DNA from: Microcaldota archaeon
GTDB taxonomy: Archaea > Micrarchaeota > Micrarchaeia > Micrarchaeales > CABMGC01
Assembly: GCA_021852055.1 (NCBI GenBank)
Contig: JAJZOD010000010.1
Span: forward strand, 1-50,769
Direction of reading: 5' to 3'
Length of the DNA stretch: 50,769 nucleotides
A program made the translations under genes and the position numbers. Positions 4,581 to 23,876 of the stretch are shown one piece after another; positions within the stretch are counted from its first letter, which is position 1; each line of letters opens with the position of its first letter. The notes under the pieces are model-generated. The model was not told the origin of the DNA. It did not search any database and saw nothing but the letters and a program-made list of their open reading frames with translations.

Positions 4581-5249
4581 ATGCCGGTAGCAAAGCTGAA
4601 CATTCTCGGCAACGATTATATCGGAGCATTTGCACTTTCAGCAGATTCCTTTTCGCTTATAGCAAGAGGCGCAACAAAAGGCGAGCACATCGCGTTGCAA
4701 CGAGATCTCGAGGCACCTGTCCACAGCACAACTGTCAACGGATCCGACCTTATAGGCATATATGCCACATGCAACTCCAATTCTGTGCTACTTCCTGAAA
4801 TGGCATACTCAAACGAGGTGCGCCAGCTGAAAAAGGCGCTTCCCAATGTAAGCGTGCATGTACTGGACACGGATCTAAATGCACTAGGGAACAACATACT
4901 CGCAAACGACACCATTGCAATAATCAATCCTAACTATTCTTCAAAAGAGGCCAAGCACATATCCGACCTGCTCGGCGTTGAGGTGATAAGGATGGGCATA
5001 GGCGGTTTTGAGACGGTCGGCGCAAACAATATTCTAACAAACAAAGGCATAGTGCTGAACAATGCTGTCAGCGAGAAGGAGGAGGAAGAGCTGAAAGGCA
5101 TCTTCAAGTCCGTATCGCAGTCAACAGCAAACATGGGGGCTCTGAGCATAGGCCTCTGTGCAGTCGCAAATTCAAAAGGCGTAGTCGTAGGCAAATCAAC
5201 TACAGGGTACGAGCTTGCCAATATATCGGACGGCCTTGCAGTTGATTAG
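4581..5249 (+). CDS. eif6: translation initiation factor 6 (aIF6)
   Basis: A 222-residue protein with the IF6 pentein fold pattern: repeated modules such as GNDYIGAFA, GSDLIGIYATCNSNSVLLP, LGNNILANDTIAIINPNYS and GANNILTNKGIVLN. aIF6 binds the large ribosomal subunit and blocks premature joining with the small subunit. It starts at the base after the L31e stop, so translation is probably coupled. In most archaea the next genes would be LX/L18a, prefoldin alpha and ftsY; here they are interrupted, and pfdA-ftsY appear only at 26033. Confidence 0.95.
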   Translation: MPVAKLNILGNDYIGAFALSADSFSLIARGATKGEHIALQRDLEAPVHSTTVNGSDLIGIYATCNSNSVLLPEMAYSNEVRQLKKALPNVSVHVLDTDLNALGNNILANDTIAIINPNYSSKEAKHISDLLGVEVIRMGIGGFETVGANNILTNKGIVLNNAVSEKEEEELKGIFKSVSQSTANMGALSIGLCAVANSKGVVVGKSTTGYELANISDGLAVD

Positions 5250-6174: not shown

Positions 6175-6185
6175 TAGCTGAGCAT

Positions 6186-6620
6186 ATGCCTTTCGAATAC
6201 ACATTCGATAAAAACGTTTGCATACAGTGCGGCATATGCGGCGACGTGTGCCCCGTCAATGCACTCGACTTCACACGTGCAGTGCACAAAAATCCCGAAG
6301 ATGCAAAAACGGTATCTGACAAAGAAGAGGATATGACCGAGTTCCCCATTCAAGTAGACAAATGCATAGGCTGCATGATATGCCCTGAAGAGTGTCCTGT
6401 ATCATGCATAACTATACTCAAAGCCGACAAGGAGCCCAAATACGCAGAAAAACAGGGACCCATGCTTACAGAAGAGCCTGTAAAAGATGAGTTTGCTCTT
6501 TCAAAATACACCAAGGTGCGCCCTACAAGGGTAAAGACAAAGGATCCATGGGGTAAGGTGTACATATACAGGCCGAGGCGCAGGAAGTCGCAGACAGGAA
6601 CATGGGAGGGCATGCAGTAG
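6186..6620 (+). CDS. 2[4Fe-4S] ferredoxin with basic C-terminal extension
   Basis: 144 residues. Two cluster motifs are clear: CIQCGICGDVCP at about 12-23 and CIGCMICPEECP at about 60-71, each with three clustered Cys and the Cys-Pro that serves the other cluster. A 30-residue charged insertion lies between them. The last 36 residues form a basic tail (TRVKTKDPWGKVYIY, then RPRRRKSQTG). Related C-terminally extended ferredoxins accompany oxidoreductases in Thermoplasma-like archaea; the partner here is unknown. The coding sequence of the tail and the DNA behind it occur again at 23571, on the far side of the surface-protein island. Confidence 0.88.
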   Translation: MPFEYTFDKNVCIQCGICGDVCPVNALDFTRAVHKNPEDAKTVSDKEEDMTEFPIQVDKCIGCMICPEECPVSCITILKADKEPKYAEKQGPMLTEEPVKDEFALSKYTKVRPTRVKTKDPWGKVYIYRPRRRKSQTGTWEGMQ

Positions 6621-6768
6621 CTGTGCTGTACGCAACTTTATCCTGTATTCGCTTAACACCGCGAGCTGGAAATCCCGCACTGTTTATGGGTTGGTAGATG
6701 CCATCAACGGCAGCAATGAGATGAATGTACAAATCCCATAACAACTGACAAGGATTTGAATATATACC
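6507..6768. repeat. direct repeat copy 1 (ferredoxin 3' end and downstream DNA)
   Basis: Bases 6507-6657 align with 23571-23716 at high identity over about 150 bases, with only point differences and one short indel. The similarity resumes at about 6725-6768 (CCCATAACAA, then AATATATACC) against 23744-23782, after an extra segment of about 60 bases present only in this copy. Copy 1 includes the real end of the ferredoxin gene and a promoter-like AT-rich block that now faces transposon debris. Confidence 0.85.
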
Positions 6769-6850
6769 AACCTCTTCATAACACAGGAGGTTATGCCACA
6801 TTAATCTGTTAAAACTCATTTTGAAGCAAAAAAGCGATAAAGTCAACTTA
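6769..6850 (-). pseudogene. tiny transposase C-terminal remnant
   Basis: Read on the minus strand this stretch encodes MWHNLLCYEEVG, close to the GIWHNLLVL ending of the degraded transposase at 10820-11500. The matching DNA, about 34 bases carrying AACCTC and GAGGTT as an inverted pair, is similar at 6769-6801 and 10812-10846. It is probably the end of a second, nearly erased copy of the same element. It is short, so the call is tentative. Confidence 0.4.
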
Positions 6851-6908
6851 TTCTCATCTCAATTTTACGCGATAGGTGAATAAAACCAAGAAGTTTGTTA
6901 TTCCTCAA

Positions 6909-7116
6909 CTACAAGTTTAGGCATGCTGCCTTGACTGGTGTTTTCTCGCAGAGACTATTATGCGGTGTCATATAATTATAGATAAATCTAAAGAAAATAA
7001 GTTTCGATAACGCACTTCATGTGTTTGGAAAACACAAACAGCGCCGATTTTTTTCCGATTTCCTTGTTATATCTCCCTATCGGATTGTTGCTGTGCCTCA
7101 AATCATTTCCTACAGC
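6909..7116 (-). pseudogene. DDE (rve/IS6-like) transposase C-terminal remnant
   Basis: On the minus strand, from 7116, one frame reads a phrase with HSNNPIGRYNKEIGKKSALF up to a stop after IETYFL. A one-base shift continues FIYNYMTPHNSLCEKTPVKA to a stop at 6909. The NN-x-I-x-R-x-N block followed by YN-x-M-x-PH-x-SL-x-x-KTP is the classic end of an integrase-core transposase of IS6-like type. Only this C-terminal part is left, with a frameshift and no start. Confidence 0.6.
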
Positions 7117-7205
7117 CAAACCTGTCTATGGGAAACGTACCTATCACTATATTAAAAAGAAAGAATAGAGAAATAGAATTTATAAGACCCTAAAGTTTAT
7201 AATTT

Positions 7206-7266
7206 GTCAGGTTCCTAACAATTAGACATAGGGGACGGCGTTTTTACATAAATGTCAGGTTCCTAA
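7206..7266. repeat. paired TGTCAGGTTCCTAA repeats before the pilin-TIGR03790 gene
   Basis: TGTCAGGTTCCTAA occurs at 7206-7219 and again at 7253-7266. A degenerate relative, TTTGCCAGATCCCTAATTT, is at about 9449-9467, on the other side of the gene. They may be ends of insertion sequences; the first lies next to the IS6-like remnant. Confidence 0.5.
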
Positions 7267-7269
7267 TAT

Positions 7270-7277
7270 GTTTATAA
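7270..7277 (+). promoter_or_regulatory. TATA box for the pilin-TIGR03790 gene
   Basis: GTTTATAA lies about 30 bases before GTG 7300 and about 35 before ATG 7309, the spacing expected for a leaderless or near-leaderless archaeal mRNA. Confidence 0.5.
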
Positions 7278-7308
7278 TGGTTTGTGCCGTTGTATAACAG
7301 TGAATAGA

Positions 7309-9138
7309 ATGCGATTAAGGTTGCAATCTGCAATGGAGTATCTGGCTACATACAGCTGGGAGATATTGATAATTGCTATAATCTTGGTTGCTATGTTTGA
7401 GCTCGGCCTGTTCTCCGGATTTCAGTTGCCTTCAAGCTGTGTAGCTCAACCTGGTTTTCTATGCATTTCAACTAATCTTGTAACAAATGGATTGCTATAC
7501 GCTACTATAGGATCTATCTCAGGCACGATAACCTTATCAGGAACAGCATGCTCAAATAATATATCTACTCCTCCACAGATAAGCAGCTATGTACCTATGC
7601 ATGGGACTCTTTCATCAGATTACGGGAGTGTGCTTACATTTCACTGTAATCTCAAATCAAATACATTGGGCACGTACTTTCATGGTACATTGTGGATATT
7701 GTATACAAGTGGAAATGTAGAGTCACAGATAGAAGTTGGATCTATTTCAGCAGATGCGAGTTCAGTAGGGCTAACAACCACCTCCACACTGCCTTCAACA
7801 ACATCATCAACCATTACTGCTTCAACAAGCACAACTTCAACAACACTATCAACATCTACTTCCTCAAGCACAACCTCAACAATGCCATCAACATCTACTT
7901 CCTCAAGCACAACTTCCTCAAGCACAATCTCGACAACGTCATCAACATCTACTTCCTCAAGCACAACCTCAACAAGCACAACTTCAATAACGTCATCAAC
8001 ATCTACCTCCTCAAGCACAACCTCAACAAGCACAACCTCGACAACGTCATCAACTACGACCATTCCACCATCCAATCCCACCAAATCATTTAATCCCACC
8101 ACCTACTACAGCTATTCTGATGTTTTGCTCGTATGCAATCCTGCGAGCCAGATAAGTCTTGACGTTTGCACATACTTTACCAATCAACGCATATCTGAAG
8201 GGTTTAATGCATCGCATATACTAAATCTTTCAGGAATATCAACCTCTGAATATGTCAATGATACAGTAACGCAGAATATTCTGTCTCAGGTAAAGGCAAA
8301 GATAACCTCCATAGGCCTGGGAAAAATAGACTACATAGTTACCACTTACGGAACTCCATTAGTGGATAGTGGAAACGGTTATTCGATAGATTCATTTATG
8401 GCGGATAACCTTACTGATGCTGCCGATGGCGGTATTAACAATCCATATTACTACCTTGGAAATTCTTCACATATCGCCGTCAATACTACAACTACTTACC
8501 TTCAGAATCATACATTTTCATGGAACCGGTATCACATGTATGAAGTGACAAGGCTTGATGGGCCCACGCTACAGAGTATATATAACCTTATAAATGATGC
8601 AAACAACGCGGGTGATGCATTAAACACTGGATATGTACTGCTGGACAGCAACACTCTTTCCATTAACTACGCTTCCTATGATGAATTCAACCAAACCAAT
8701 ACTATACTGACAAATATGGGGGTAAATAACCGTTTAGTAAGCACAAGTTTTGAGACAGGTGTGCATGGTCTTAGCGGCTATGCTTCCTGGGGCTCAAACT
8801 GCGACTGCACTGCGGGGCAGAACTCAAGTGAATGGAATCTTACGTTTGTACCAGGAGCAATAGGTGAAACATTTGTATCTACAAGTGCGAGAACCCTTAT
8901 CCAGCATCCATGGGACGGGGGGCAGTCTCTTATAGATGATTTAGTGATGTACAACATAACCGGAATAAGTGGGTATGTAAGCGAGCCTTATCTTAGTGGA
9001 ACAGAGACTATTAATGTTCTATTCCCTCTATACTTTAGCGGCATGACACTTGCTGACAGCTACTACGCAGCAATGCCTGAAATACAGTGGAAGAGCGTAG
9101 TAATAGGAGATCCCAAGGCTCATCTGAAAAGCATGTAA
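7309..9138 (+). CDS. pilin-type signal, Ser/Thr-rich stalk and TIGR03790-like domain
   Basis: 609 residues from ATG 7309; the frame opens at TTG 7282, but the TATA box position favours 7300 or 7309. Residues 1-30 are a short basic leader, QSAMEYL and a hydrophobic helix, the class III signal. Residues about 40-150 resemble the pilin ectodomains at 127 and 1237. Residues about 158-252 are an almost pure Ser/Thr tract of TSSSTTS-type repeats, likely O-glycosylated. Residues about 268-604 match the TIGR03790 pattern: DVLLVCNP, KIDYIVTTYGTPL, MYEVTRLDGPTL, a central SWGSN, then FVPGAIGETFVSTSARTL, GISGYVSEPYL and the final VVIGDPKAHL. TIGR03790 has no known function; its ending recalls gingipain-like peptidases, which is only an inference. 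It is a stalked surface protein bracketed by transposon remnants. Confidence 0.8.
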   Translation: MRLRLQSAMEYLATYSWEILIIAIILVAMFELGLFSGFQLPSSCVAQPGFLCISTNLVTNGLLYATIGSISGTITLSGTACSNNISTPPQISSYVPMHGTLSSDYGSVLTFHCNLKSNTLGTYFHGTLWILYTSGNVESQIEVGSISADASSVGLTTTSTLPSTTSSTITASTSTTSTTLSTSTSSSTTSTMPSTSTSSSTTSSSTISTTSSTSTSSSTTSTSTTSITSSTSTSSSTTSTSTTSTTSSTTTIPPSNPTKSFNPTTYYSYSDVLLVCNPASQISLDVCTYFTNQRISEGFNASHILNLSGISTSEYVNDTVTQNILSQVKAKITSIGLGKIDYIVTTYGTPLVDSGNGYSIDSFMADNLTDAADGGINNPYYYLGNSSHIAVNTTTTYLQNHTFSWNRYHMYEVTRLDGPTLQSIYNLINDANNAGDALNTGYVLLDSNTLSINYASYDEFNQTNTILTNMGVNNRLVSTSFETGVHGLSGYASWGSNCDCTAGQNSSEWNLTFVPGAIGETFVSTSARTLIQHPWDGGQSLIDDLVMYNITGISGYVSEPYLSGTETINVLFPLYFSGMTLADSYYAAMPEIQWKSVVIGDPKAHLKSM

Positions 9139-9167
9139 CGCCTCCAAACTGGCTGCGCATATTGTCT

Positions 9168-9358
9168 CGCGGAGATAAGAAAAACAAACAGGATAAGTGG
9201 AGAAAAAAGACCAACCATAGTAACAGATGGGCCATCGAAGGGTTTTAGTCACGCTTCAAGAGGCAATTGGTGAATACCTATTTTCAAAGAAAATAGACAA
9301 CATAGAAAAAGAAACCATTATGAAGGCAAACATGCTGAGTACTTTTATAACAATATAA
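9168..9358 (+). pseudogene. IS4/IS5-type transposase C-terminal remnant
   Basis: The plus strand reads NRWAIEGF, an in-frame stop, then SRFKRQL. After a one-base shift it continues EYLFSKKIDNIEKETIMKAN and MLSTFITI to a stop at 9356-9358. Joined, this is the usual end of IS4/IS5-like transposases, an RW-x-x-E-x-x-F-x-x-FKR-x-x-GEY block followed by a conserved helix. It is inactive by a stop and a frameshift. The rest of the 9139-9526 gap is AT-rich and shows nothing else. Confidence 0.6.
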
Positions 9359-9526
9359 ATTTTCAATATATGAAAAGTGTTAGATTTAAGCAGATTGATT
9401 TTTATCTATTTATTGAACACAGCATATAAAACAAGAAGTTATTTAATTTGCCAGATCCCTAATTTAGCGTATATATTTTATGAAAGAGGTATTGCGTAAT
9501 TATTAAATATAAACTATAGAATATAT

Positions 9527-10726
9527 TCATGAATGAAGGCCGAACCATCTTTCATTTCCATATATTTCACATAATTTATCAAGATCCTTTTGAGGCTTTT
9601 CTGGAAGGAACCCGGATAAGAGCTGTGCAAATATAAAATCAAAACGGCTCCAGGAATTTGGATTTTTTGAAAAGTAATGTTCGTATATCGGAATTGTGAT
9701 ATCTTCTGGAAGTTTCTTTTTTATACCAAATCTGATTCCTGAAAGAAATGCTGCACACATGTGTTTAGTTGTTTTATGAATTATTGGATTAGAAGGATTT
9801 TGGAGATCTAAATCTATTATTGCTGTAATTGTTTTCTTTGCAAAGACATCGGATGACCGGCTAGAAGCGCCTATTTTTTTAATTATATGCCGCATAGCAT
9901 ATCCCATTGAATGTGTAAATGCTTCATTATGATCAAAGTAGTCTGATCCTGCTATATCAACATAGAGTATTGCAGCTTTTAAGTACGTAGAATAAGCATC
10001 CAGGAAGGCTTTTTTATCTGCAGAGTCGTTAGAATATAATGCATTTACAAAGTATCTGCCAATATTTAAAAGGGCCTTGGGATTGTGTTTTTTAACATCA
10101 GAGTTAAATACATCTGCGTATTTATTACCATATAAATTATCCGAGTATATTATTATATTAAGAATTTTTGCTTTTTCTTCTGTAGACGCAGGTTTGAACA
10201 GATCAAAAATCTGTTCTTCGGTAGGCCAGTTATGTTTAGGTAATTTAATTGCATTAACTCTTGAAAGTTTAGATAAATTTTTCATTAAAAATTTTAATAT
10301 TTCCGGTTCGTAATATAGAACGTTAGTCTTTTTTTTAATAATTTCTGTTTTTATTCCTTGTTTTACTGCTTCTTCTAAAAGTTTTTTAAGTAATAAATTA
10401 CTGGAACGTGGATTTCCTAGATTTAATTCACGTTTTATTTCGTACTCTGAAAGCCATCCCTCCGAAGGTTTAAGTTTTAAATCGCGTAAATAAGATTGGA
10501 TCAGTTCTACAAATTTATAATCGTACCGAGGATTGCCGTTAGTTCCCGTATAAATCATTCTTCTGGCGTCAGGATCGGATTTTTTTAAGACATCTATATG
10601 AGACCTTAACGTATATCCATGAGTGCGTATTAATGAACATAACTCTACAAATGTAAGAGTATTAGATTTATGAGATATATCGGCATGATTTCCGGTATTT
10701 ATTGAAACGGTTGTTTTTTGTTTCAT
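9527..10726 (-). CDS. unknown AT-rich gene in the island
   Basis: A 399-residue, Lys- and Asn-rich soluble protein with no signal peptide or membrane segment. It starts at ATG 10726 with about 25 Ser/Asn/Thr-rich residues. A region near residues 75-130 (LKLKPSEGWLSEYEIKRELN, then SSNLLLKKLLEEAVKQG) looks like a winged-helix DNA-binding segment (inference from pattern). The C-terminal 230 residues seem all-helical. Base composition is much more AT-rich than the housekeeping genes, and it lies between two transposase remnants on the opposite strand to the surface genes. I do not recognise the family; a transferred regulator or element-borne protein is possible. Confidence 0.7.
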   Translation of the reverse strand: MKQKTTVSINTGNHADISHKSNTLTFVELCSLIRTHGYTLRSHIDVLKKSDPDARRMIYTGTNGNPRYDYKFVELIQSYLRDLKLKPSEGWLSEYEIKRELNLGNPRSSNLLLKKLLEEAVKQGIKTEIIKKKTNVLYYEPEILKFLMKNLSKLSRVNAIKLPKHNWPTEEQIFDLFKPASTEEKAKILNIIIYSDNLYGNKYADVFNSDVKKHNPKALLNIGRYFVNALYSNDSADKKAFLDAYSTYLKAAILYVDIAGSDYFDHNEAFTHSMGYAMRHIIKKIGASSRSSDVFAKKTITAIIDLDLQNPSNPIIHKTTKHMCAAFLSGIRFGIKKKLPEDITIPIYEHYFSKNPNSWSRFDFIFAQLLSGFLPEKPQKDLDKLCEIYGNERWFGLHS

Positions 10727-10796
10727 ATAATCAAATATTACAAAACTAGTCGAATCGTATATTTTTTAAGATTAATATGTTTTACTATTTTAGAGG

Positions 10797-11513
10797 GATT
10801 GGGACATAAGTCAACCTCTTCACAACACGAGGAGGTTGTGCCAGATGCCTTTACACATAATTGCTGTCGCAATCCTGTCAAAACGCCTCTGTTATATGTT
10901 CCAACCATTTGACTTCTTGTAAGAGGCAAAACCACTCTCGGAACTCTCAAGTCTATAATACTCCTCCAGAAAGACCCTTGTGTCTCTCATAAGGTCTTTC
11001 CATGTTTCGTGCCATTTCTTGCTGCAGTTCACCGTCGTATTTGTCTTTGGTAGAATGTAGAATCGTGTGTATGTCCCGATTTTCTTCACTGTCGACTTCT
11101 ATTCCGAGTGAGCTCATCATCTGCTTCGCGCTGTAGAACGCCTCCTTCTCTGACCTCATTCCAGTGCCGTAACCGACATACATGTTCGTCTTCAAGTCGA
11201 TGAATGCAAATGCATAAGCAAACATCTTCTTCTTTTCGTTATTCTTCTTGACGTTGGATGCATTGTGTTTCTTTATGGTGGGGTTGTATCCTCTTCCGTC
11301 TCCGGACATATCGACATGCTTTATTCCCTTCCTTCGCACCATGATCACGAACATGTTGTGAAGAACCATCGATACCAAAGTTTCGGAATATGATCTTTCA
11401 ACAGTCTTGTAAGAAGTCTCGGTGTTGTGCAATTTACCGAATAGTGGCAACAGGTTTGCGGTTTTCCTGTTGCTTGTGTCGAAAATGTCTTGACCAGAAC
11501 TTATGTCTCAATC
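10797..11513 (-). mobile_element. degraded insertion sequence with terminal inverted repeats
   Basis: The left end GATTGGGACATAAGT (10797-10811) and the right end ACTTATGTCTCAATC (11499-11513) are inverted copies with one mismatch. They enclose a broken transposase read on the minus strand. The total of about 717 bases is short for a transposase of this type, which agrees with internal loss. No clear target duplication is visible at the borders. Confidence 0.7.
10820..11500 (-). pseudogene. DDE transposase, frameshifted and internally deleted
   Basis: Minus strand from about 11500: an open frame without a proper start reads DIFDTSNRKTANLLPLFGKL, SETLVSMVLHNMFV, the catalytic-region phrase VDMSGDGRGYNPTI, then FAYAFAFIDLKTNMYVGYGT and MRSEKEAFYSAKQMMSSLGI. 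Near 11070 it shifts frame and continues FYILPKTNT, KKWHETWKDLMRDTRVFLEE, SESGFASYKKSNGWNI, a stop, then QRRFDRIATAIMCKGIWHNL to a stop at 10820. The segment that normally joins the two halves, with the second catalytic Asp, seems missing. The order of motifs is that of a DDE transposase common in Thermoplasmata and ARMAN; I cannot fix its IS family (IS5- or ISNCY-like). It cannot be active as it stands. Confidence 0.72.
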
Positions 11514-11676
11514 TCAAAAAGGAAAGTATTTATATAACACGGTTCTAATCATTTATGATTTGGTATTAACTTGAAGAGTCTCGGCGTGGATGTCGAGCCT
11601 TACATTATTAGTTTTCGTCTACGGAAAGCAAAAATATCAACTCTAATTATATTTAAAGAAAGATTTGAAAAACCGT

Positions 11677-11682
11677 GGAGGT
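11677..11682 (+). promoter_or_regulatory. strong Shine-Dalgarno site
   Basis: GGAGGT seven bases before ATG 11690. It settles this start over the upstream GTG 11675. Such strong sites are rare in this window, where most starts rely on a nearby TATA box instead. Confidence 0.6.
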
Positions 11683-11689
11683 AACTTCA

Positions 11690-11989
11690 ATGGAGAGTAA
11701 AGGAATTTTGAGGAATAAAGGAGCATTTTTTGCAATGCCTCTGCTGAACGTAATGTTTATTGGCGTTGTAAGTGCTAATTCAGTTTCATTTAATTCTATC
11801 AGTACACTCTCTAATTCATTTGAAGTTGGCCAAACAATAAACCGTAAGATATCAATCTCCGGAAATACAATAACCGGAATTAGTTCCTTTGCACCTCCAA
11901 ATCTAATCTTTACCTCAAATTCTCCTGATGTAATCAATGCAATAACTTCTTGTTCAAAAGATTATTCAACGTCGTCACTCAAAACTTAA
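11690..11989 (+). CDS. short secreted protein, probably a truncated surface protein
   Basis: 99 residues. After a charged start come a hydrophobic segment (residues about 14-30, AFFAMPLLNVMFIGVVSANS) that looks like a signal peptide and a beta-type stretch (SNSFEVGQTINRKISISGNT). That stretch resembles the start of the giant protein at 16928, where a similar secreted N-terminus is followed by IDVGQSTQITING. The last 25 residues lose that character and the frame stops 14 bases before the next gene. It is probably the 5' remnant of a third large surface protein. It has a good ribosome-binding site and may still be translated. Confidence 0.5.
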   Translation: MESKGILRNKGAFFAMPLLNVMFIGVVSANSVSFNSISTLSNSFEVGQTINRKISISGNTITGISSFAPPNLIFTSNSPDVINAITSCSKDYSTSSLKT

Positions 11990-12003
11990 TTGGTTTGGAT
12001 ATT

Positions 12004-15000
12004 ATGATTAAGACTAAAACAATTTTATTTTTGTTATTTTTATTTTTGTTTCCTTCTATATCTTATGCGTCATCTGCTTGTCCTAATTCTCCACAGGGCG
12101 CTATTTACTGTCAAGCAATCTTAATACAAAATACTGCTAATAGTTCAATAGTCCAAGGTACCCAGATACCAATAACTTACAATGCACTAGCGTACTCTTC
12201 TTATCTAGCTTCGAACCTTCAAAATATAGTATTCTACAATTCTGCTAATGGTTCAATAATTACATCCTGGCTCGAGGGAAATCTTTCCAATGAGCTTCAG
12301 AACTCAAATCTTCAGTTATCAAGTAACATACTAATATGGATAAAGGTCCCGACAAATATTCCTGCAAATTATAATTACAGTAGTATCTACATAGCCTACT
12401 TTCCAAACAATGTTAGCGAGTTAAATAATATAACTACCGGTGAAGCTCCGCAGTTATCTCCTTTGTATGCCCAATACGACAACGGAGCATTGCTTTTCAA
12501 TTCATATCAGAATTTTGCAGGTACTTCAACTCCTTTAGGTTGGCATATTTTTAAAACGGGAACATCATATATAAAACAAGACAACGGCCTAAGCACCAAT
12601 GGCTCATACAGTTATGGTGTTTATGCTGTAATAACAAACTCAACCAATTACGGATTGAACTCAAGCAGAGTACTCGACGCTTTAGAAAGCGTCGAAAATA
12701 GCAGCAGCCTATATAATTATTATCTTGGAGTAGGATACACTAATGGATACGGTACAGCTTACGGCTATAGAAATTCTACATTTGTGGGCTGGAGCAATGA
12801 GTATGGTCGCTCTCCAATTTCTCCTTTTTCAGCATCAAGTTCTGAAGGCGGAGTTACTATGGGTAACTTTACTCCAGGATATCTAACCGGCATCTTTAGC
12901 ACATACTGGCCTTCAATATCAAAAGCTCAGTTTTATTTAAATTACAATTACTCTGAAACAATTAACGCCACCATACCCAAAAATACATTATCTCTGGGAA
13001 TTGCAGGAAGAACTAGTGGAAATCTAATAAAACTGTACTGGATAAGAGAGCGGAATTATCTAGCTAATAAAAGTATACCTGGCATTTATTTTGATAAAAT
13101 TACTTCTATAAACAACACAACAACACCCCCTTCAAACATCTCTTCAAACAGTCCCACTTCATATGATCAAATTGTCTCTTTTAATCCTTCATTATACTCT
13201 AATTATGAATCATACAATCTAGGAAATATCCGATTTTACAATGGAAATTCAGAGCTCCATTCATGGTGCGAATCAGGATGCAACTCCTCTTCAACAAATG
13301 CTACATTCTGGATAAAAACTATCAAGGGGGCTAGCTTTATATCTATAATATTTCTTAATACTACCGTTCAATACGACGGCATATACGCCGGAGAAGCTCC
13401 TGAGTTAAGTCTAATATATGGCCAGTATGATAATGGGGCAAGGGTCTTTCCACTATACGACAACTTTATTGGAAGTACATTAAATGCCTCTAAATGGTAC
13501 TTTTCAGAATGTCCTTTATCTTATAAAGTAAATAATGGGCTTGAGGTAAATACAACATATTGCGGCTATTATAACCCAATTCCCGGCACAACATCTATTG
13601 ATCCATCAAACGGTATAATGGGTGCATACATAACAAATGCCAGCATCAGAGGTTCAGGTTTTGTGTTTTGTTGGCTGCATACTGGTGGTTATTGTTCTCC
13701 TGCAGCAGGCGTTAGAAACGGAACAACACTCTTATACAGTGATAAATCTGGACAGGACAACACAGGTTACTTCATAGACTCTGTAACAAATAACGATTCC
13801 ACATTCAAAATCGATTGGGCATTTATTGCTACGTATCCTCCAAACGGAGTCATGCCTAATATTACTATTATACGATCCCTATCCCCTGAAGTATCCTACG
13901 CCTCTGCTGAAAACACATCAGTATCGATTTTCGGCACTTCCACTCCTAAAACTATAAAAAAAGGCCAAACTTATGAAATGCACTCATTAGTATCTGGAAT
14001 AACTGCCCCAGTTATTTCTTATCAATGGTTTGAAAAAACTCCAACGTCATCATTTTATTTTCTTATACCTGGCGGTTTCTATTCATATCATAATTTTACA
14101 ACAAATACCTCAACAGTTCAAGGAAATTATAGCTTTAAACTCAGAATCGTAGCAAATCAACTAATCCTCTTTTCAGTTCCGTTTTCAATATCTGTATTAA
14201 ACTCTACATATATTCCAAATGTTGTTAAAGGCCTTAACAATCCTTCTGGAGTATCAGTATCATCAAACGGTGCATATGTATATGTTGAAAATTACGGCAA
14301 TAACACAATAAGCATAATTAACTCCTCGACAAATAAAATATTAAAAAGCATAAAGAGATCATACGAACCATCAGGAATGGCTATCTCACCAAATGGTGAA
14401 TATTTATATGTTTCCAACACAGGAAACAATACAATCAGTATACTAAACTCATCAAGCCTTTCTGTAGTAAAAACCATCTATCATTTATTTGGGCCTAACG
14501 GAGTAATACCTTCGTTAAATGGAGCTTATTTATATGTTACAAATTTTTATAACAATTCTATAAGCATAATAAATCTTTCTACATTGGATAAGGTTTATAC
14601 AATTCATGGCCTGAATGGCCCTGATGGAATAGCGTTATCGCAGAACGGTACTGTTGTTTATGTATCTAATGAATATAACAACTCTTTATCTATAATAAAT
14701 ATTAAATCAAGAAAAATAATTAATACAATTACTGGATTAGATGTGCCCTCCGATGTGGCTACTACTCCTGATTACTCTTATGTATACGTACCTAATTATG
14801 GGAACAGCACGCTAAGCATAATAAATACCACTACTGACAGCATAGTTTGGACAATTTCTAAGTTAAATTTACCGCAGAATATCGCTTTTTCATTAAATGG
14901 AAATTATGTATATATAGCAGAATCAGGCAATAATACTCTAAGTGTTGTAAATCTTACAAACATAAATATGAATTTACCAAATATGCTTAAATTATCACAA

Positions 15001-16821
15001 CTCCATTCCACCTCTCAGCTTGTAATACAAGATCAATCAGCAACTATATTCTCAGCTGGTGCTTTCGGCGGAACAAAACCGTATCATTACACATGGTATG
15101 AGCGTCTTCCTGGTGAGCAGTCATATAACTCCATTTACAGTTCAGATTCAAGTTATTACACCTTTATTACATCTAATATGACAGAACTCGGTAGCCACCT
15201 ATTTGAGCTATCTGTATCTAATCAATCAGCAACTGTGTTTTCAACCCCTATTTTAGTTCAGGTAATTCCGCGTCTTACACTTTCAACATCAGCTACCACA
15301 CAAAATATTGATTTTGGACAACACATAACTTTGGCTGCCATTGCAAAAGGCAGCACTGGAAGTTATTCTTATATTTGGTATAATGATACTTCTGGAGTTC
15401 CTATTAAAATTTCAGGGGCAATATCAAATACACTCTATTTAGATGGAACCTCCTTGTCAAAAACATCTACTTTCCCTACCGTAGCCGTAGGAAGCAATTT
15501 AATTGATGGGCTTTATACTGTAAAAGTCAATAATATTACTGGCTATTCATCAACTGTAACTCTGTCAGTTTATTATAACGGAGTCTTAACAAACAAGAGC
15601 ATAATCAATGCCTATGTCCTTCCATCTGTTTCTTCTTTTAATGCCGCAGGACATTTGTTAAAATTAATTATAAATAAACTAAACGGCAATATAGTAAATC
15701 CAACATTGAATGTTACGATAATTACGCCATTTCAATATACAGTTAATGCGATAGGCACAAGTGTTTTAAACATAAGCTCTTTAGACTCGGCAAACTCCTC
15801 TTACTTTAATATATTTGTAAATCCTAAATTGGTATTTGAGGATCCTTTAAATAATACAGTAACAGATTCTGGACTATCTACCTTTCCTTATACTATGTTT
15901 ATAACCGGCGGAACACCACCATATAAATTTTTAAATACTACAATTACTGGCAATAGCCCTTCAGATTTTGGATCTTTGCAACTAACGGACAATATAGAGC
16001 CGTGTGGGGGCTTTAGCAATCCAGAAGGCTTTAACTCCGTTCAGTGTTCATTAAGCGTAGCTTCAGATGCAACTCCTGGAAAATACACTATACCTATTAC
16101 ACTGATTGATTCATCAAATGGTCTTCCAATATCAAACTCAACGTATGATATGCACATACAAGTCAATCCACCGCTTAATGCTATTAGTACCGGCTTTAGC
16201 AAGAATGTAATACTAGATGTAAATCAGCAGTACACCTATGCTATAAACGCCTTTAATGGAACCCAGCCTTATCTGTACTCTTGGGAATGGTCTCAAGGCG
16301 TAGGTGGAAATACAAATACTGGTACAATGAGGCAATTTTTCAATATTACTGTACTGTCTGGTTGTTCTGCATACACAGGAAAAGGACCATTGAATAGTAG
16401 CTGCATCTTTAAAGCCATAAGTAAAAATCTAACCAATACTCGCATATACGGCTCTGTATTAGATAGTGCATTAGATGGTCCAGGCTTTTCAGAACAACCA
16501 AAAGAATTCAATTCAAATTTAACTATACACCCGGATCCTACACTATCACTAAATACAATTAAGCAAATTATAGGCACAAACCAGTATGAAAATCTCACTA
16601 TCTCAGTAAATGGCGGTGTTGGGCCTTTCAATATAAAACTGTACAACCTTACGGGTAACGATATCGTTAAAAACATAACCCTTCAAAGCGGAGAGAGTAA
16701 CACTATACCTATTTACACATCAGGATTAGGGAACTTTACCTATGAAGCAATAGGAACAGATATGGGAACTACAATTCCATACTATTTTAATTCATCAAAG
16801 CTTTCAATAACTATCACTTAG
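12004..16821 (+). CDS. giant modular surface protein with DUF2341 modules and beta-propeller
   Basis: 1605 residues from ATG 12004, which gives a clean signal peptide (MIKTKTILFLLFLFLFP, cut after SYA); the upstream ATG 11950 in the same frame would bury it. Modules in order: DUF2341 plus lectin-like sandwich at about 36-362 (YDNGALLF inside), a second such pair at about 383-628 (YDNGARVF, ending YPPNGVMP), an Ig-like region at 640-732, six YVTN-type blades at 738-995 (for example NGEYLYVSNTGNNTISILNS), then several Ig-like regions to the end. N-glycosylation sequons are very frequent. There is no C-terminal membrane segment, so it is secreted or held by other surface proteins. The DNA is strongly AT-rich compared with the housekeeping genes. 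Probable role: adhesion or cell-envelope structure (inference). Confidence 0.8.
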   Translation: MIKTKTILFLLFLFLFPSISYASSACPNSPQGAIYCQAILIQNTANSSIVQGTQIPITYNALAYSSYLASNLQNIVFYNSANGSIITSWLEGNLSNELQNSNLQLSSNILIWIKVPTNIPANYNYSSIYIAYFPNNVSELNNITTGEAPQLSPLYAQYDNGALLFNSYQNFAGTSTPLGWHIFKTGTSYIKQDNGLSTNGSYSYGVYAVITNSTNYGLNSSRVLDALESVENSSSLYNYYLGVGYTNGYGTAYGYRNSTFVGWSNEYGRSPISPFSASSSEGGVTMGNFTPGYLTGIFSTYWPSISKAQFYLNYNYSETINATIPKNTLSLGIAGRTSGNLIKLYWIRERNYLANKSIPGIYFDKITSINNTTTPPSNISSNSPTSYDQIVSFNPSLYSNYESYNLGNIRFYNGNSELHSWCESGCNSSSTNATFWIKTIKGASFISIIFLNTTVQYDGIYAGEAPELSLIYGQYDNGARVFPLYDNFIGSTLNASKWYFSECPLSYKVNNGLEVNTTYCGYYNPIPGTTSIDPSNGIMGAYITNASIRGSGFVFCWLHTGGYCSPAAGVRNGTTLLYSDKSGQDNTGYFIDSVTNNDSTFKIDWAFIATYPPNGVMPNITIIRSLSPEVSYASAENTSVSIFGTSTPKTIKKGQTYEMHSLVSGITAPVISYQWFEKTPTSSFYFLIPGGFYSYHNFTTNTSTVQGNYSFKLRIVANQLILFSVPFSISVLNSTYIPNVVKGLNNPSGVSVSSNGAYVYVENYGNNTISIINSSTNKILKSIKRSYEPSGMAISPNGEYLYVSNTGNNTISILNSSSLSVVKTIYHLFGPNGVIPSLNGAYLYVTNFYNNSISIINLSTLDKVYTIHGLNGPDGIALSQNGTVVYVSNEYNNSLSIINIKSRKIINTITGLDVPSDVATTPDYSYVYVPNYGNSTLSIINTTTDSIVWTISKLNLPQNIAFSLNGNYVYIAESGNNTLSVVNLTNINMNLPNMLKLSQLHSTSQLVIQDQSATIFSAGAFGGTKPYHYTWYERLPGEQSYNSIYSSDSSYYTFITSNMTELGSHLFELSVSNQSATVFSTPILVQVIPRLTLSTSATTQNIDFGQHITLAAIAKGSTGSYSYIWYNDTSGVPIKISGAISNTLYLDGTSLSKTSTFPTVAVGSNLIDGLYTVKVNNITGYSSTVTLSVYYNGVLTNKSIINAYVLPSVSSFNAAGHLLKLIINKLNGNIVNPTLNVTIITPFQYTVNAIGTSVLNISSLDSANSSYFNIFVNPKLVFEDPLNNTVTDSGLSTFPYTMFITGGTPPYKFLNTTITGNSPSDFGSLQLTDNIEPCGGFSNPEGFNSVQCSLSVASDATPGKYTIPITLIDSSNGLPISNSTYDMHIQVNPPLNAISTGFSKNVILDVNQQYTYAINAFNGTQPYLYSWEWSQGVGGNTNTGTMRQFFNITVLSGCSAYTGKGPLNSSCIFKAISKNLTNTRIYGSVLDSALDGPGFSEQPKEFNSNLTIHPDPTLSLNTIKQIIGTNQYENLTISVNGGVGPFNIKLYNLTGNDIVKNITLQSGESNTIPIYTSGLGNFTYEAIGTDMGTTIPYYFNSSKLSITIT

Positions 16822-16927
16822 ATATTCTATGTTTTTTGATAATTCTAATAAGCTTAAATAGTTCATCAGTAATATGCATAAGCAATATGATAAGATAAGT
16901 ATACATCAATCCATAACTGTTGTTTCT

Positions 16928-19900
16928 ATGTTTAGAAAAATAACCTTAATTTGTATTATGTTGCTCATACCCTATTTCTTATCTACCTTTGTTCTATCTG
17001 CTTCAACTGTATCATGCAGTGGAAATTCACAGATACTCTGTTCCAGCATAGCAGTAACCAACAAGACAATAGATGTTGGACAATCAACTCAGATAACTAT
17101 AAACGGCATAAGCAGTTCTACAAATCTTATGTCTGGTAATTGGTTATTCTCTGGAACAAACATAACTTCCTATAGAACATCTACCTTTAACCTTAATGCT
17201 TCGTATCTAGGAAATTGGGAAAAGCAGAATACATATCCTCTCAACTGGAACATAACAAATGGCCAAAGTTGTAATATAATCTCCAATACCATCTACTGTA
17301 TTGGCGGATATAATTATAATCTAAATACTGTTGTAGGCAATGTTCTTTATTCTGAAATAACTTCCTCTGGTTTGTCACAATGGAACTCTTCAGGTTATAG
17401 CAATTATCCAACGGCAGTTTTGTACCCTGCATGCACTTCTTATAACGATTTTATGTACTGCGTTGGCGGCAATGAAAAAGATTCCCAAATTAATGGCCCA
17501 TATTCGATTAATGAATTATATTATTCAAATGTTTCCGCGACCTCTAAAAGCTGGTCTTCAGGACCTCATTATCCTGAAGATATATATGGATCCTATTGCG
17601 GCGCATACGCCTCTGTAATATACTGTGTTGGAGGAGTAAATGAAACTAGTAACATAATCACTTCAGGAAATCAGAATTATACTAACTATTATTATCATAA
17701 TACTAACTACTCTTATTACAGTAAGTTAAATCCATCGGGCGTTCCTGAATCATGGAACAGCACAACAAACTTCCCGGCAAACATACTTCTTTCATCAATA
17801 CCCTCCTGCATAATTTATAGTTCAAACATCTATTGTTTTGCTCAAATATACAAAAATTATATCCCTAAAAATATAGCTTATTATGCATCATTAAGCTCAA
17901 ATGGCATAGGAACATGGAAGCCAACAACTCCATACCCTGAAAATATCTCTAAAGAGTCATGCACTGCGCTTAACAATACAATTTACTGTATTGGCGGCTT
18001 ATCAGAAGCATCTCAACAAGTATCAGCTTCGTTTTCAGTCCCTATAACCTCAAATGGAATAGGAAATTGGAGCATAGGCTCTCAGCTTGTAGTTTACAAT
18101 AGCACGGTAGGACTAACTACCTTAGCCTTAAACACTCCGTGCAACTTTTATTCCAACACGCTTTACTGCGTAGACGGATCAATAGATGATTATTCCATAC
18201 CTTTGAATTATGTATACACAGCCAATATAATAAAACCGAATCTTACTATGCTGATTTATGCATATTCCTCAAACCAATTAAACATCACTTTCGGGAGAGG
18301 AGTTACTGCATTTATACCTAGAACCTCTAATGTATTTTCAAATCAAAATTTTGGAAACATATCTCTTTCTGCTACGATAAACAACACCATAAATAGTATT
18401 CTGATAAATGGAATACCAACAATAACAATAACAAATAAGCCTACAGCCTCTATAATTCCTACAAATACTATTCTCGATTATGGACAAAGAGAAACGTACG
18501 CCATAGCTGAAAAAGGGGGCGTTGGCCCCTTTTATATTACGTTATATAATTATTCTTCTTATATTGGAAAATCATTAATATATGGAACTAACACTATAAA
18601 CCAAGGCCAAACTGCATACTTTTCATTTACTCCAGACATGCTAAACAATAACAATAATTATTTTTCTTCAAATCTAATAGATAAGGGCTCTGAAGATTAT
18701 GCTTTTAATACATCAGTAAACGAAATAATTTTAAACAATGATCCTAATGTCACATTAATTCCAATAACCCAAAACGTAATTTCAGGAGAAAACGGTACCT
18801 ACTCCGTTTCTGTTTCTAATGGAGAAGGACCATTTACTGCAGAACTTTATAACACAAACTCTAATTCTAAGGTGGGCAGTAATGTTATAATCTATTCGTC
18901 TATGGCACCTCAGAACACAGTAACTGTAGGAACCGATCCTTATTCAGTCGCAATAAATCGTTTAGGAACCATAGCATATGTGTCTAATAATCAAAGTAAC
19001 TCAGTAAGCGTAATAAACCTTGCAACAAACACAGTAACAAATACTATTACCGTTGGCTCAAATCCTGTATCTTTAAGATTAAACCCATCAGGATCCTTCT
19101 TATATGTAGCAAATTATGGTAGCAATAACGTTGACGTAATTAACACAACTACAAACACAGTCTCAAATACTATAAACACAGGTCAAGGCCCTGATTACAT
19201 AGCATTTAATCCTTCAGGTACCTTTGCTTATGTCTCAAATTCAAAAAGCAATAACATATCTGTAATATCCTTATCAAGCAATACTGTAAGTCTAAGCATA
19301 CCTGTTGGCAGTATTCCGAAGTCAATAGCGTTTAACCCGTCCGGCACTTTTGCATATGTTGCCAATAGTGGCAGCAACACAATTAGTATTATCACTACAG
19401 CAACAAACTCTGTGGCAAGCTCAATAAACGTTGGCATTAATCCTACTTCTGTAGCGATAAATCCATCCGGCACTTTAGCGTATGTGACAAATTACGGCAG
19501 CAATAATTTGAGCATAATAAGTACCGCTACTAACACAATAATAAAAAGTATCTCATTAGCTTCTTCTATCTATCAACCTACGGGTCCTTTTTATGTAACC
19601 TTCAATCCTACCGGTACATTCGCATATATTGCAGAGTATTTAAACAGCACCATCAGTGAGATAAATCCATCAACAAATACGGTAGTTTCCATATTCTCAG
19701 CTTATTCTTATCCTACTTCATTAGCATTTAACCCTTCAGGTTCATTTCTATATATAACTTCTAGTTTTTATAATGAATTAATATCAAAAAACACAGGAAC
19801 AAATATTATTTCATTTCCAATCAGCAATACTGGTACATTAACATATAATGCAATAATTACTGATTTGGGCACTACAATGCCATTTACCGTTTCATCTGCT

Positions 19901-22900
19901 TATAATTCCATATATTCGTCCGCAGGATCTGCAGCAACAGTCTCAATTACTCCATCAAATCAAACTCTAGACAGTGGCCAGTACGAAACCCTAACAGCAA
20001 CAATAAATGGCGGTTCCGGTTCTTTCAATGTAGAGTTCTACAATATCTCCGGCTCAAAGCAAATAGGATCGAGTATACTTATAAGCTCTGGAAATTCGAA
20101 TTCAATTACTTTTAAATCAGGAAATACTGGCTCTTACACATTCAATGCAATAGCATCTCAAAGCGGAAATACTATCTCATCATTTCCTACTACAATAACT
20201 GTAAATCCTTCTTTATCTTCTTTATCAATATCACCTTCAACAGAAATATTGGACAGTGGACAACAGGTTACCTTAACCTCATCAATATCCGGCGGTTCAA
20301 CTCCTTATCATTACACTTGGTATAGCGGAACCTCATCAACATGCAGCTCTGATGCTTCTATAGTAGGGACTTCATCATCATATTCTGCATCTCCTACTTC
20401 ATCAACTTATTATTGCTTAAAGGTTCTAGACAGTGCATCTACACAAGAATCTTTAGTTTCTTCTACTTCATATTTTTTAGTAAATCCTACTCCTGCTATC
20501 TCAATAACTCCTTCAAACTCTATCCTGGATAGTGGCCAATATGAAAACTACTCCTTTTCAATTTCAGGAGGAACTGGTCCATTTACCGGAGAACTTATAA
20601 ATAAGACCTCAGACAAACAAATACTCTCAAATATTACCATTTCAGAGCCTGGCCATCTTGGTTCGCTACTTTATCAAATATTCAATACCGGAAGCTACAA
20701 TTATAATGCTATATTTACTGATACTGGAACAACAACACACTACGTATTTTCTTCTTCAAGTAACAGCATATTTGTAAATTCACAGTTGCTTTTTACTTCA
20801 TTTTCATTAAATGCAAATGCAGTAAACATAAATCAACCTATAACAATCTCATCAACAATCTCTGGAGGCTCTCCAGATTATAACTACACATTTTATGTTT
20901 ACAATATGTCTAATGCCTTGATAACTAAACGAACTTATATCTCTTCATCCACTACTAACTCCTTTATATTTACTACCGGGACAGCAGCACAGTATTATGC
21001 CAATGTCATAGTGTCTGATAGTGCTTCAACCAAAGAGCATGTAAACGCTACAAAACAAAGTTTTGTGGTTTTAGAGAACGGTGCACTTTCAGTTAAAAAT
21101 CCTACCTCTACATATTCATCATTGGATCAAGGACAATCAACAACAATTTTGTCATCTGCTTCTGGCGGTATAGGCCCCTTTTCATATCAATGGTATGAAA
21201 AAATCCCTGGTTCTGGATCTTATGTAGCAATATCTAATGCAAACAGCGTTTCTTATCTATTTTCAACCTCTTCTTCTACTACCCCTCCAGGTACATATAG
21301 TTTTAAACTTCAAGTTACAGATACAGGTCAGACAACAAATAACGTAGCAAACTCTACCTCAATAAATATTCCTTTAGCTTCTACGTTACAAATTACTTCT
21401 TCAGAAATATCATCAAATGCAATTAGTACTTCTGGAGTTCTTACTATCTCTTCATCTATTTCCGGTGGAATTCCTCCGTATACATATAACTATTCGGTTT
21501 ATAACTCAATATCTAATACGCTTTATTCATCAAGCAAAGTTCTTTCATCTTCAACATCTAACTCATTTTCATTTTCAGGACCTGCAGGATCTTATTATGC
21601 TAAAATCAAAGTAACCGATTCGGCTTCAGTCACAACCTCTCAAAGTTCGTCTAACTATAATTTTATCATATATATTCCTTTTAGTGTAACATCTATTTCA
21701 GGAAATACTATAATTGATAATCTTCAATCAACTACTCTATCAGCTACAAAGATAGGCGGCATAGGCCCCTTTTCATATCAATGGTACCAAAAAATAACTG
21801 GCTCTACATCTTTCTATTCTATACCTGGCGCAACTAGCAATACATATACATTTAATTCATTCTTCACTGATTCATTAAACGGATATCCACAAACATATTA
21901 CTTTAAACTTCAAGCTGCAGACAATGGAGAAAGTTCTGATAATATACTAAACTCAACTCCAGCTGAATTAACTATAAACCCACAGTTTATTCAACCTATA
22001 ATTTCTCTTAATGGCAATAACATAAATAACGGCAACGTTATTGACGTATATGCTACGTTAGGTGGTGGTACGGGACCATACGAATATAAGTATGGAATAT
22101 ATAACAGCGTTACCAACGCTATAATAGCATCAGAAACATATATTTCCTCATCTGCCTCAAATACATTCGGTTATCTAACCTCGCAAGCTGGATCATTCTA
22201 CGCTAATTTTACTGCAATCGACTCGGCTAATTTACCGGAGTCTAAAAACAGCACAAAGGCATTCTTCACGGTAAATAACGTTTCAAGTATCATAACGACT
22301 CCGTCTGTCGGGGGCGGCGGCGGAAGTGGCGGCGGTGCAAGCAGCGGCGGTTCTGCAGGAGCTGGGGGTGGGCTTCCTCATCCAACTGTTACTCCAACAT
22401 CTTACGGCTATATAATTTCTAACTTTGGAGTACATGCGTCATTTACATTTGATTTCTGCAATAAACAGATATATAGCATGCTTAATTTTATAAGTCCTGA
22501 TGCGGCAGGAATATCACTTAACAATGTGCCTTATACTCTGTCTTTGTCTGCTGCACCAACAAACCTTACTGATCTAGCCGGTTGCTCTATGCAGCTTTAT
22601 AATGTTTCATATATTCCTTTACAGCAGACTGTCAAGATAAAGTTTTTTGGCAAGAATAATCTTACTAATTCAGTCACTTCAAATAGTAGCAGCACTTCTG
22701 GAAGTCGAAATACAACTCAAAATTCAACAATATCAAATAGTGTTTTGCCTCAAAACCTAAGTTTTATAATATCAAAACCATACTCAAGCAATATAATACT
22801 GTCCACAAAAGTATTGAACACTACGCTAAACATTTCAAAATCACAACCCACTACAATTTATGTAGAAAGGAACGGTATTTCAATATCCTTAACTTCCACT

Positions 22901-23557
22901 CAAGAAACACAAGCATCTATAAAGTTTTCAATACCTTCATCAATATCTTATGCAAAGCCTAAAAATTACTCTACTATAATCTCAATCTTCAACTTCTCTA
23001 TAAAATCAAATTCATCAAGTACACTGTCACAAAGAATAAATGTTTCTTATTCTTGCAATATACCTTCGAATACTATAAAACCGTTTATCCTCAGAAATAC
23101 TTCTTGGTACTTAATAACAAACTTCACTACAAACTCTCAAAAATGCAGTATTTCATTCAATACATCTTTTGATCCTACGGTAGGTGTTTTTTCTTCATAT
23201 TCTAACAAAATTAAAGCTACAAACACTTCAAATACCTCTATAATTACTAACACTTCATTTACTACAACAACGACCCATGAAACAACTCAGCAAGTAACTA
23301 CCGAATCAGCTTCAATATCCCAAAATAATACTGCAAAAGCAACGCAAAGTGAAAATTATTCAATAATCATATATATTTTAGTAATCATATTTGTGATTAT
23401 TATTCTTTATCTGTTATTCAAAATAAAGAAAATCAAAATAAAGAAAAAACCAGAAAACAACCCAATTAATGGAAATGATGCAGTAAATCAAAAACTTCCG
23501 GTCGTTGAAAATAATGAACAAACCCAAAGTAGTGAACAACCCACAAATATTCAATAA
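16928..23557 (+). CDS. giant anchored surface protein: kelch-like, propeller, Ig-like repeats
   Basis: About 2209 residues from ATG 16928, which starts a signal peptide (MFRKITLICIMLLIPYFLST); ATG 16874 lies upstream in frame. Modules: kelch-like repeats at about 95-437, each with NTIYCIGG-type strands and paired Cys; an Ig-like region at 500-657; seven YVTN blades at 660-965 (LNPSGSFLYVANYGSNNVDV and relatives); six or more Ig-like repeats at about 1000-1790 with the recurring phrases LDSGQ and GGIGPFSYQWY; a Gly/Ser linker at about 1794-1817; a C-terminal Cys-containing domain; a Thr-rich stalk; one membrane helix at about 2145-2166; and a Lys-rich cytoplasmic tail. It is clearly an outward-facing, membrane-anchored fibre. 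Composition is AT-rich. It shares architecture with the gene before it, suggesting duplication and module shuffling. Confidence 0.82.
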   Translation: MFRKITLICIMLLIPYFLSTFVLSASTVSCSGNSQILCSSIAVTNKTIDVGQSTQITINGISSSTNLMSGNWLFSGTNITSYRTSTFNLNASYLGNWEKQNTYPLNWNITNGQSCNIISNTIYCIGGYNYNLNTVVGNVLYSEITSSGLSQWNSSGYSNYPTAVLYPACTSYNDFMYCVGGNEKDSQINGPYSINELYYSNVSATSKSWSSGPHYPEDIYGSYCGAYASVIYCVGGVNETSNIITSGNQNYTNYYYHNTNYSYYSKLNPSGVPESWNSTTNFPANILLSSIPSCIIYSSNIYCFAQIYKNYIPKNIAYYASLSSNGIGTWKPTTPYPENISKESCTALNNTIYCIGGLSEASQQVSASFSVPITSNGIGNWSIGSQLVVYNSTVGLTTLALNTPCNFYSNTLYCVDGSIDDYSIPLNYVYTANIIKPNLTMLIYAYSSNQLNITFGRGVTAFIPRTSNVFSNQNFGNISLSATINNTINSILINGIPTITITNKPTASIIPTNTILDYGQRETYAIAEKGGVGPFYITLYNYSSYIGKSLIYGTNTINQGQTAYFSFTPDMLNNNNNYFSSNLIDKGSEDYAFNTSVNEIILNNDPNVTLIPITQNVISGENGTYSVSVSNGEGPFTAELYNTNSNSKVGSNVIIYSSMAPQNTVTVGTDPYSVAINRLGTIAYVSNNQSNSVSVINLATNTVTNTITVGSNPVSLRLNPSGSFLYVANYGSNNVDVINTTTNTVSNTINTGQGPDYIAFNPSGTFAYVSNSKSNNISVISLSSNTVSLSIPVGSIPKSIAFNPSGTFAYVANSGSNTISIITTATNSVASSINVGINPTSVAINPSGTLAYVTNYGSNNLSIISTATNTIIKSISLASSIYQPTGPFYVTFNPTGTFAYIAEYLNSTISEINPSTNTVVSIFSAYSYPTSLAFNPSGSFLYITSSFYNELISKNTGTNIISFPISNTGTLTYNAIITDLGTTMPFTVSSAYNSIYSSAGSAATVSITPSNQTLDSGQYETLTATINGGSGSFNVEFYNISGSKQIGSSILISSGNSNSITFKSGNTGSYTFNAIASQSGNTISSFPTTITVNPSLSSLSISPSTEILDSGQQVTLTSSISGGSTPYHYTWYSGTSSTCSSDASIVGTSSSYSASPTSSTYYCLKVLDSASTQESLVSSTSYFLVNPTPAISITPSNSILDSGQYENYSFSISGGTGPFTGELINKTSDKQILSNITISEPGHLGSLLYQIFNTGSYNYNAIFTDTGTTTHYVFSSSSNSIFVNSQLLFTSFSLNANAVNINQPITISSTISGGSPDYNYTFYVYNMSNALITKRTYISSSTTNSFIFTTGTAAQYYANVIVSDSASTKEHVNATKQSFVVLENGALSVKNPTSTYSSLDQGQSTTILSSASGGIGPFSYQWYEKIPGSGSYVAISNANSVSYLFSTSSSTTPPGTYSFKLQVTDTGQTTNNVANSTSINIPLASTLQITSSEISSNAISTSGVLTISSSISGGIPPYTYNYSVYNSISNTLYSSSKVLSSSTSNSFSFSGPAGSYYAKIKVTDSASVTTSQSSSNYNFIIYIPFSVTSISGNTIIDNLQSTTLSATKIGGIGPFSYQWYQKITGSTSFYSIPGATSNTYTFNSFFTDSLNGYPQTYYFKLQAADNGESSDNILNSTPAELTINPQFIQPIISLNGNNINNGNVIDVYATLGGGTGPYEYKYGIYNSVTNAIIASETYISSSASNTFGYLTSQAGSFYANFTAIDSANLPESKNSTKAFFTVNNVSSIITTPSVGGGGGSGGGASSGGSAGAGGGLPHPTVTPTSYGYIISNFGVHASFTFDFCNKQIYSMLNFISPDAAGISLNNVPYTLSLSAAPTNLTDLAGCSMQLYNVSYIPLQQTVKIKFFGKNNLTNSVTSNSSSTSGSRNTTQNSTISNSVLPQNLSFIISKPYSSNIILSTKVLNTTLNISKSQPTTIYVERNGISISLTSTQETQASIKFSIPSSISYAKPKNYSTIISIFNFSIKSNSSSTLSQRINVSYSCNIPSNTIKPFILRNTSWYLITNFTTNSQKCSISFNTSFDPTVGVFSSYSNKIKATNTSNTSIITNTSFTTTTTHETTQQVTTESASISQNNTAKATQSENYSIIIYILVIIFVIIILYLLFKIKKIKIKKKPENNPINGNDAVNQKLPVVENNEQTQSSEQPTNIQ
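18905..19820 (+). repeat. tandem propeller-blade repeats inside the giant gene
   Basis: Seven imperfect units of about 125-130 bases encode YVTN-type blades; each has an AAxAxxPSGxxxYVxN core. The similarity is visible at DNA level, for example in the recurring CCTTCAGG and CCATCCGGCAC segments. This makes the stretch prone to unit gain or loss. Confidence 0.7.
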
Positions 23558-23570
23558 TCTAAATTTAATA

Positions 23571-23782
23571 TACACAAGGCGCGCCCTACAATGGTAAAGA
23601 CAAAGGATCCATGGGGTAAGGTGCACATATACGGACCGAGGCGCAGGAAATCGCAGACAGGAACATGGGACATGCAGTAGCTGTACTGCAATGCATTTAT
23701 TCTGCATCTGCTTAACTGCAGCAGATGCGAAACAAGCGTATAAATTCCATAACAATGAAAATAGACAAAGGTATATATATGT
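23571..23782. repeat. direct repeat copy 2 (ferredoxin tail fragment)
   Basis: A second copy of the ferredoxin 3' end and its downstream DNA. In the plus frame it still encodes the tail (TMVKTKDPWGKVHIY, then GPRRRKSQTGTWDMQ) up to the same TAG, but no Cys motifs precede it, so it is a gene fragment. It begins 14 bases after the stop of the giant protein. Its downstream part carries the TATA box of the next gene. Confidence 0.85.
23770..23782 (+). promoter_or_regulatory. TATA box for the surface protein at 23877
   Basis: GGTATATATATGT. Transcription would start near 23803-23810. A related AT-rich block sits at the same place in repeat copy 1 (6757-6768), so the promoter was part of the duplicated DNA. 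Confidence 0.5.
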
Positions 23783-23876
23783 ATATTAAAAGTATTATAC
23801 CATTCATTAATCATTAAACAAGCTGAAGTGGAGTTCGGGCTTGATAATGCAAAAAGTTATACTAAACGTGATAAGA

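Follow-up and report, generated by a model that had tools for sequence, protein, structure and literature searches.

Of 68 mapped thaumarchaeal elements, 14 sit in the 3′-distal ends of protein-coding genes, and the attachment (att) sites of such elements measure 29–69 nt in crenarchaea, with a median of 17 nt in thaumarchaea (PMC6563490). An ARMAN-2-related archaeon, Ca. Mancarchaeum acidiphilum Mia14, has a 36.5-kb island with an associated XerD-family integrase that splits the gene for pyruvate-formate-lyase-activating enzyme (PMC5498576). The locus described here resembles the thaumarchaeal elements (PMC6563490) in the layout of its direct repeats, one of which belongs to an intact gene, but it lacks recombinase and mobile-element genes, and its repeat is far longer, decayed and inclusive of promoter-side DNA. 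Like the Mia14 island (PMC5498576), it is a large insertion at a protein-coding gene; in contrast to the split gene and XerD-family integrase of Mia14, the ferredoxin gene here is intact, its tail is duplicated and no integrase accompanies it. Mia14 also has strain-specific surface-layer proteins with PKD, beta-propeller and Kelch domains (PMC5498576), which are very large and of the same general domain types as those found here, whereas at the present locus several such proteins are encoded in a single IS-rich block that reaches from eIF6 to prefoldin.

The window, that is, the whole stretch of DNA analysed, comprises 50,769 nt of contig JAJZOD010000010.1 from the draft genome of a Microcaldota archaeon. 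The organism is tiny and acid-loving. The features of the locus are as follows.

4581–5249, forward strand: eIF6 gene (PF01912, E = 5.7e-50), left flank of the lineage-specific block; adjoins prefoldin/FtsY in relatives.
5380–6174, forward strand: TM5380, gene of a multi-pass membrane protein that forms a pair with the ferredoxin gene and lies immediately 5′ of it in 17 of 17 relative loci compared.
6186–6620, forward strand: FER, intact ferredoxin gene with two 4Fe-4S motifs (Fer4 / Fer4_7 domains).
6507–6751, forward strand: repeat copy A, the 3′ end of FER and about 130 nt beyond it (pairwise alignments, shuffle and control tests, IS terminus).
6751–6801, reverse strand: IS remnant, a recognisable end with the transposase C-terminus, 80% identical over 51 nt to 10796–10846; terminus taken from four other copies.
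7282–9138, forward strand: S7282, surface/pilin-like gene with a TIGR03790 domain (E = 3.7e-28) and a Ser/Thr-rich stalk.
9138–9345, forward strand: second transposase, a C-terminal remnant with frameshifts and stops, judged by eye from the six-frame translation.
9527–10726, reverse strand: X9527, ORFan of 399 aa, 32% GC.
10793–11489, reverse strand: IS remnant of the same family as at 6751, with a frameshifted DDE-like transposase (IS copy alignments).
11950–16821, forward strand: S11950, AT-rich surface-protein gene with beta-propeller and Ig-like repeats (domain scan; GC3 0.27).
16874–23557, forward strand: S16874, AT-rich giant surface-protein gene with Kelch, beta-propeller and Ig-like repeats and a C-terminal TM (domain scan).
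23571–23765, forward strand: repeat copy B, a decayed 3′ end of FER with the DNA that follows it, about 14 nt past the S16874 stop (pairwise alignments, shuffle and control tests).
23841–25589, forward strand: S23841, surface-protein gene after copy B, weakly similar to the surface gene that occupies this site in the congener G005.
26033–27906, forward strand: prefoldin subunit (PF02996) and putative FtsY genes, the latter named from sequence; right flank of the block, syntenic with eIF6 in relatives.

The ferredoxin encoded by FER shares 92% amino acid identity with a congener's protein, while TM5380 matches no Pfam family. The content between the two repeat copies is roughly as the initial annotation described it, comprising three transposase remnants, one ORFan (9527–10726) and surface genes; further debris may extend beyond the remnant ending at 6801, up to about 7250. 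An intact relative of the IS at 10793–11489 shows a weak match to PF01609. X9527 belongs to no family in Pfam, NCBIfam and PHROGs scans and has no relative in 60 genomes, being seen in this genome only; its predicted structure is of low confidence (mean pLDDT 51). Scans of viral contigs with FER, X9527 and S23841 revealed no relatives. The domain types of S11950 and S16874 are widespread across the archaeal order, and the block genes carry the beta-propeller, Kelch and Ig/PKD-like domains that mark ARMAN-type surface layers. The GC3 values of these two genes are 0.25–0.27, as compared with about 0.52 for the eIF6, TM and ferredoxin genes. The pilin-like family of S7282 has 17 matching places in the genome, S7282 counted. 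Separately, the 186-kb contig carries a pilin-like surface gene at either end, as an 876-nt inverted copy with 95.5% identity (1327–2202 and G000:C13:185547–186422). In G005, an open frame contains a long run of a QTS-type short-period repeat (L162:3077–3439); it lies at the end of a contig, close to an IS copy. Among sampled stretches of one genus (L034, L036, L038, L088 and L089), GC content ranges from 30% to 54%.

A direct repeat of the ferredoxin gene end had been proposed at 6507–6768 and 23571–23782. Alignment of the two copies (BLASTN, 6400–7300 versus 23500–24000) confirmed the homology, with 86% identity over 159 nt (E = 4e-48), although copy A proved to end at 6751, where the IS begins, and not at 6768. 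The ungapped core (6512–6607 / 23575–23670) is 94% identical over 96 nt; the copies differ there by 6 substitutions and one codon, and their longest exact match is 31 nt. After the stop codon, the similarity continues in two stretches, 6621–6658 / 23683–23716 and 6709–6751 / 23717–23765, each of which outscored all of 2000 dinucleotide shuffles and 692 control windows of real sequence. The repeat extends about 130 nt beyond the FER stop codon and reaches the upstream region of S23841, so that both copies share non-coding flanking DNA outside the gene. To the left of 6507, the similarity between the copies is not significant (P = 0.65). To the right of 6752, a candidate extension of the match with copy B scored P = 0.04 against shuffles, but it fell within the range of real-sequence controls and the IS remnant explains the match. 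The homology of copy A stops at 6751, exactly at the terminus of the IS remnant, which was placed by alignment with four further copies, of which this genome and congeners contribute two each. Because of this coincidence, the copy A tract was probably once longer. Searching the whole genome (1.02 Mb) revealed two copies of the repeat only, as well as a short match at 10796–10843 that belongs to the insertion sequence, and, repeats inside surface genes aside, the 186-kb contig has no other long direct duplication of a gene fragment of this kind. Within 4500–27000 there are no Rfam matches, and no tRNA lies near the block.

Copy B has decayed as a coding sequence: its frame reads KARPTMVKTKDPWGKVHIYGPRRRKSQTGTWDMQ, whereas copy A reads KVRPTRVKTKDPWGKVYIYRPRRRKSQTGTWEGMQ. 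Relative to residues conserved in the family, copy B shows R/K to M and Y to H changes and has lost one codon. Among the changed positions are the R/K preceding the VKTKD stretch and, in the VYIY motif, the first Y. Both are kept in most relatives, indicating that copy B is free of coding constraint. Because the coding differences are mostly amino acid changes, several of them at conserved positions, they probably arose after inactivation and not between working alleles. The losses at conserved residues are as would be expected of a pseudogene. Substitutions occupy 6 of 106 coding-derived positions but 7 of 36 post-stop positions (Fisher P = 0.02), the post-stop DNA being the more diverged. 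This difference hints weakly that copy B derives from a functional gene of greater length, or that gene conversion took place. We also observed that copy B contains a 29-aa open frame starting with ATG (23592–23682) that copy A lacks, probably by chance.

The eIF6–prefoldin junction was compared with that of relatives. In G002, G003, G007, G009, G022 and G026, eIF6 is separated from prefoldin by at most about 230 nt and FtsY follows; G011 has a gap of about 360 nt, and G008 apparently one of about 610 nt, the latter measured to a partial eIF6 hit. Ferredoxin is absent between eIF6 and prefoldin in up to eight relatives with both genes. In G004, the junction contains a single surface gene; contig 18 of G005 starts about 140 nt ahead of the corresponding surface gene, and the DNA preceding prefoldin in the right flank matches that of G005. 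Every relative possessing the TM–ferredoxin pair has it at another locus, with varying neighbours. In G001–G003, for instance, the downstream neighbour is a convergent gene of methylthiotransferase type, a family judged from its sequence; the corresponding gene of the present genome lies on contig C12 without ferredoxin. Three genomes that are 58–81% complete (G004, G005 and G006) have neither TM nor ferredoxin. The pair (5380–6620) is preserved at 17 loci of relatives, yet the genes beside it differ between genera, as if it were moving as a unit. Since relatives carry eIF6–prefoldin without ferredoxin and TM–ferredoxin elsewhere, the presence of the pair at this junction is lineage-specific, as is that of the surface genes, and the whole eIF6-to-prefoldin block is, by gene order, a lineage-specific insertion. 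The ferredoxin gene had been taken as a fixed host locus; by this comparison, the TM–ferredoxin pair is itself a newcomer at the site. A search for ferredoxin directly followed by S23841, which the initial annotation had proposed, found this arrangement in no available genome, and ferredoxin occurs at this site in no relative.

We consider it probable that a segmental duplication, tandem or unequal, left the two repeats as its scar in a surface-gene hotspot that was later filled by IS elements and surface genes. The initial annotation had offered two mechanisms, and the better fit is unequal duplication with subsequent insertion, given that about 130 nt of the repeat is non-coding and that an IS end truncates copy A. 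This explanation is favoured because the homology continues beyond the stop codon into the S23841 upstream region, because it ends in copy A exactly at the IS terminus, because copy B departs from family-conserved residues, and because relatives have eIF6–prefoldin without ferredoxin and keep TM–ferredoxin elsewhere. Against it we count that no relative retains the ferredoxin–S23841 order expected before the duplication, and that S16874 is no clear paralogue of S23841 (no mutual BLASTP match at 1e-4; surface genes diverge fast), so that a second duplicated gene is not seen. The stronger divergence of the post-stop DNA is not predicted by a simple one-step duplication.

The repeat and its extent, the IS boundary, the decay of copy B and the lack of the block in relatives are observed; from them we infer the following order of events and recombination route. 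The TM–ferredoxin pair would have moved, in this lineage, to the eIF6 / prefoldin–FtsY junction beside a surface gene, and a tract from inside the ferredoxin gene through intergenic DNA toward that surface gene would have been duplicated; in a variant, a whole extra ferredoxin copy would have been made and truncated later. An IS may then have inserted at 6751, straight after the copy A downstream DNA, and further IS copies, the ORFan and AT-rich surface genes would have piled up between the copies. Copy B would have turned into a pseudogene fragment, now merely upstream DNA of S23841.

A single homologous crossover, by which DNA of another strain (a ferredoxin tail plus surface genes) entered the ferredoxin locus and left homology at both ends, seems rather unlikely. 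A foreign origin is suggested by the AT-richness of the surface genes as compared with a GC3 of about 0.5 in household genes, and coding-derived sequence is better conserved than intergenic sequence, as between alleles of two strains. However, the amino acid changes in copy B, several at conserved positions, point to an origin after inactivation, and no donor locus was found.

Site-specific integration, with the ferredoxin 3′ end as the attachment site, the repeats as attL and attR and the integrase since lost, is quite unlikely. The intact gene at one end with its tail at the other is the geometry that integration produces, the island genes are AT-rich and one of them is an ORFan, and both integration into the 3′-distal part of protein-coding genes (PMC6563490) and the splitting of such a gene by an island in Mia14 (PMC5498576) have precedents in archaea. 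The evidence from the locus itself nevertheless leaves this reading, also put forward initially, unsupported. No integrase was found in the window by a PF00589 search of the whole genome, the matches of which lie on contigs C10 and C3, or in the block genes by Pfam, NCBIfam and PHROGs scans, in agreement with the earlier remark that none was visible. Nor did we recognise replication or structural mobile genes in the block. No relative has ferredoxin directly before S23841, so integration is unconfirmed by an empty site. Finally, the repeat, at about 195–245 nt and with promoter-side DNA, exceeds the published archaeal att sites. A recombinase, an empty site and a matching repeat length are thus all missing. 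Casposons, too, can insert at the 3′ ends of genes, but the Pfam, NCBIfam and PHROGs scans gave no match of a block protein to a family pointing to one. That the block is a decayed, integrase-less mobile element of Micrarchaeota, which attached at the 3′ end of a ferredoxin gene and had giant surface-protein genes as its cargo, we regard as distinctly improbable.

An assembly artefact is very unlikely: although the draft genome is in 14 contigs, could have been misjoined in repetitive surface genes, and congener contigs break beside such genes (G005 contig 18), the 6 substitutions and the codon by which the repeat cores differ mean that they are not one sequence assembled twice, and the right-flank DNA ahead of prefoldin agrees with that of G005. 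Least credible is the suggested reversible surface-antigen cassette, for although surface genes flanked by direct repeats could in principle recombine out, a crossover in the 31-nt exact match would leave the ferredoxin with the damaged tail of copy B (Y to H, R to G and EG to D, some of them family-conserved positions), and the repeat copies are decaying, not maintained.

Taken together, the region appears to bear the scar of an old duplication among fast-changing surface genes, and not to be a working mobile element. Were the mobile-element reading true, it would add a further route for the spread of surface genes among such symbionts. The locus offers a well-bounded case of surface-gene rebuilding in host-dependent archaea with small genomes, in which one otherwise conserved junction has gathered IS elements, giant adhesin-like genes and a housekeeping pair that moved there.
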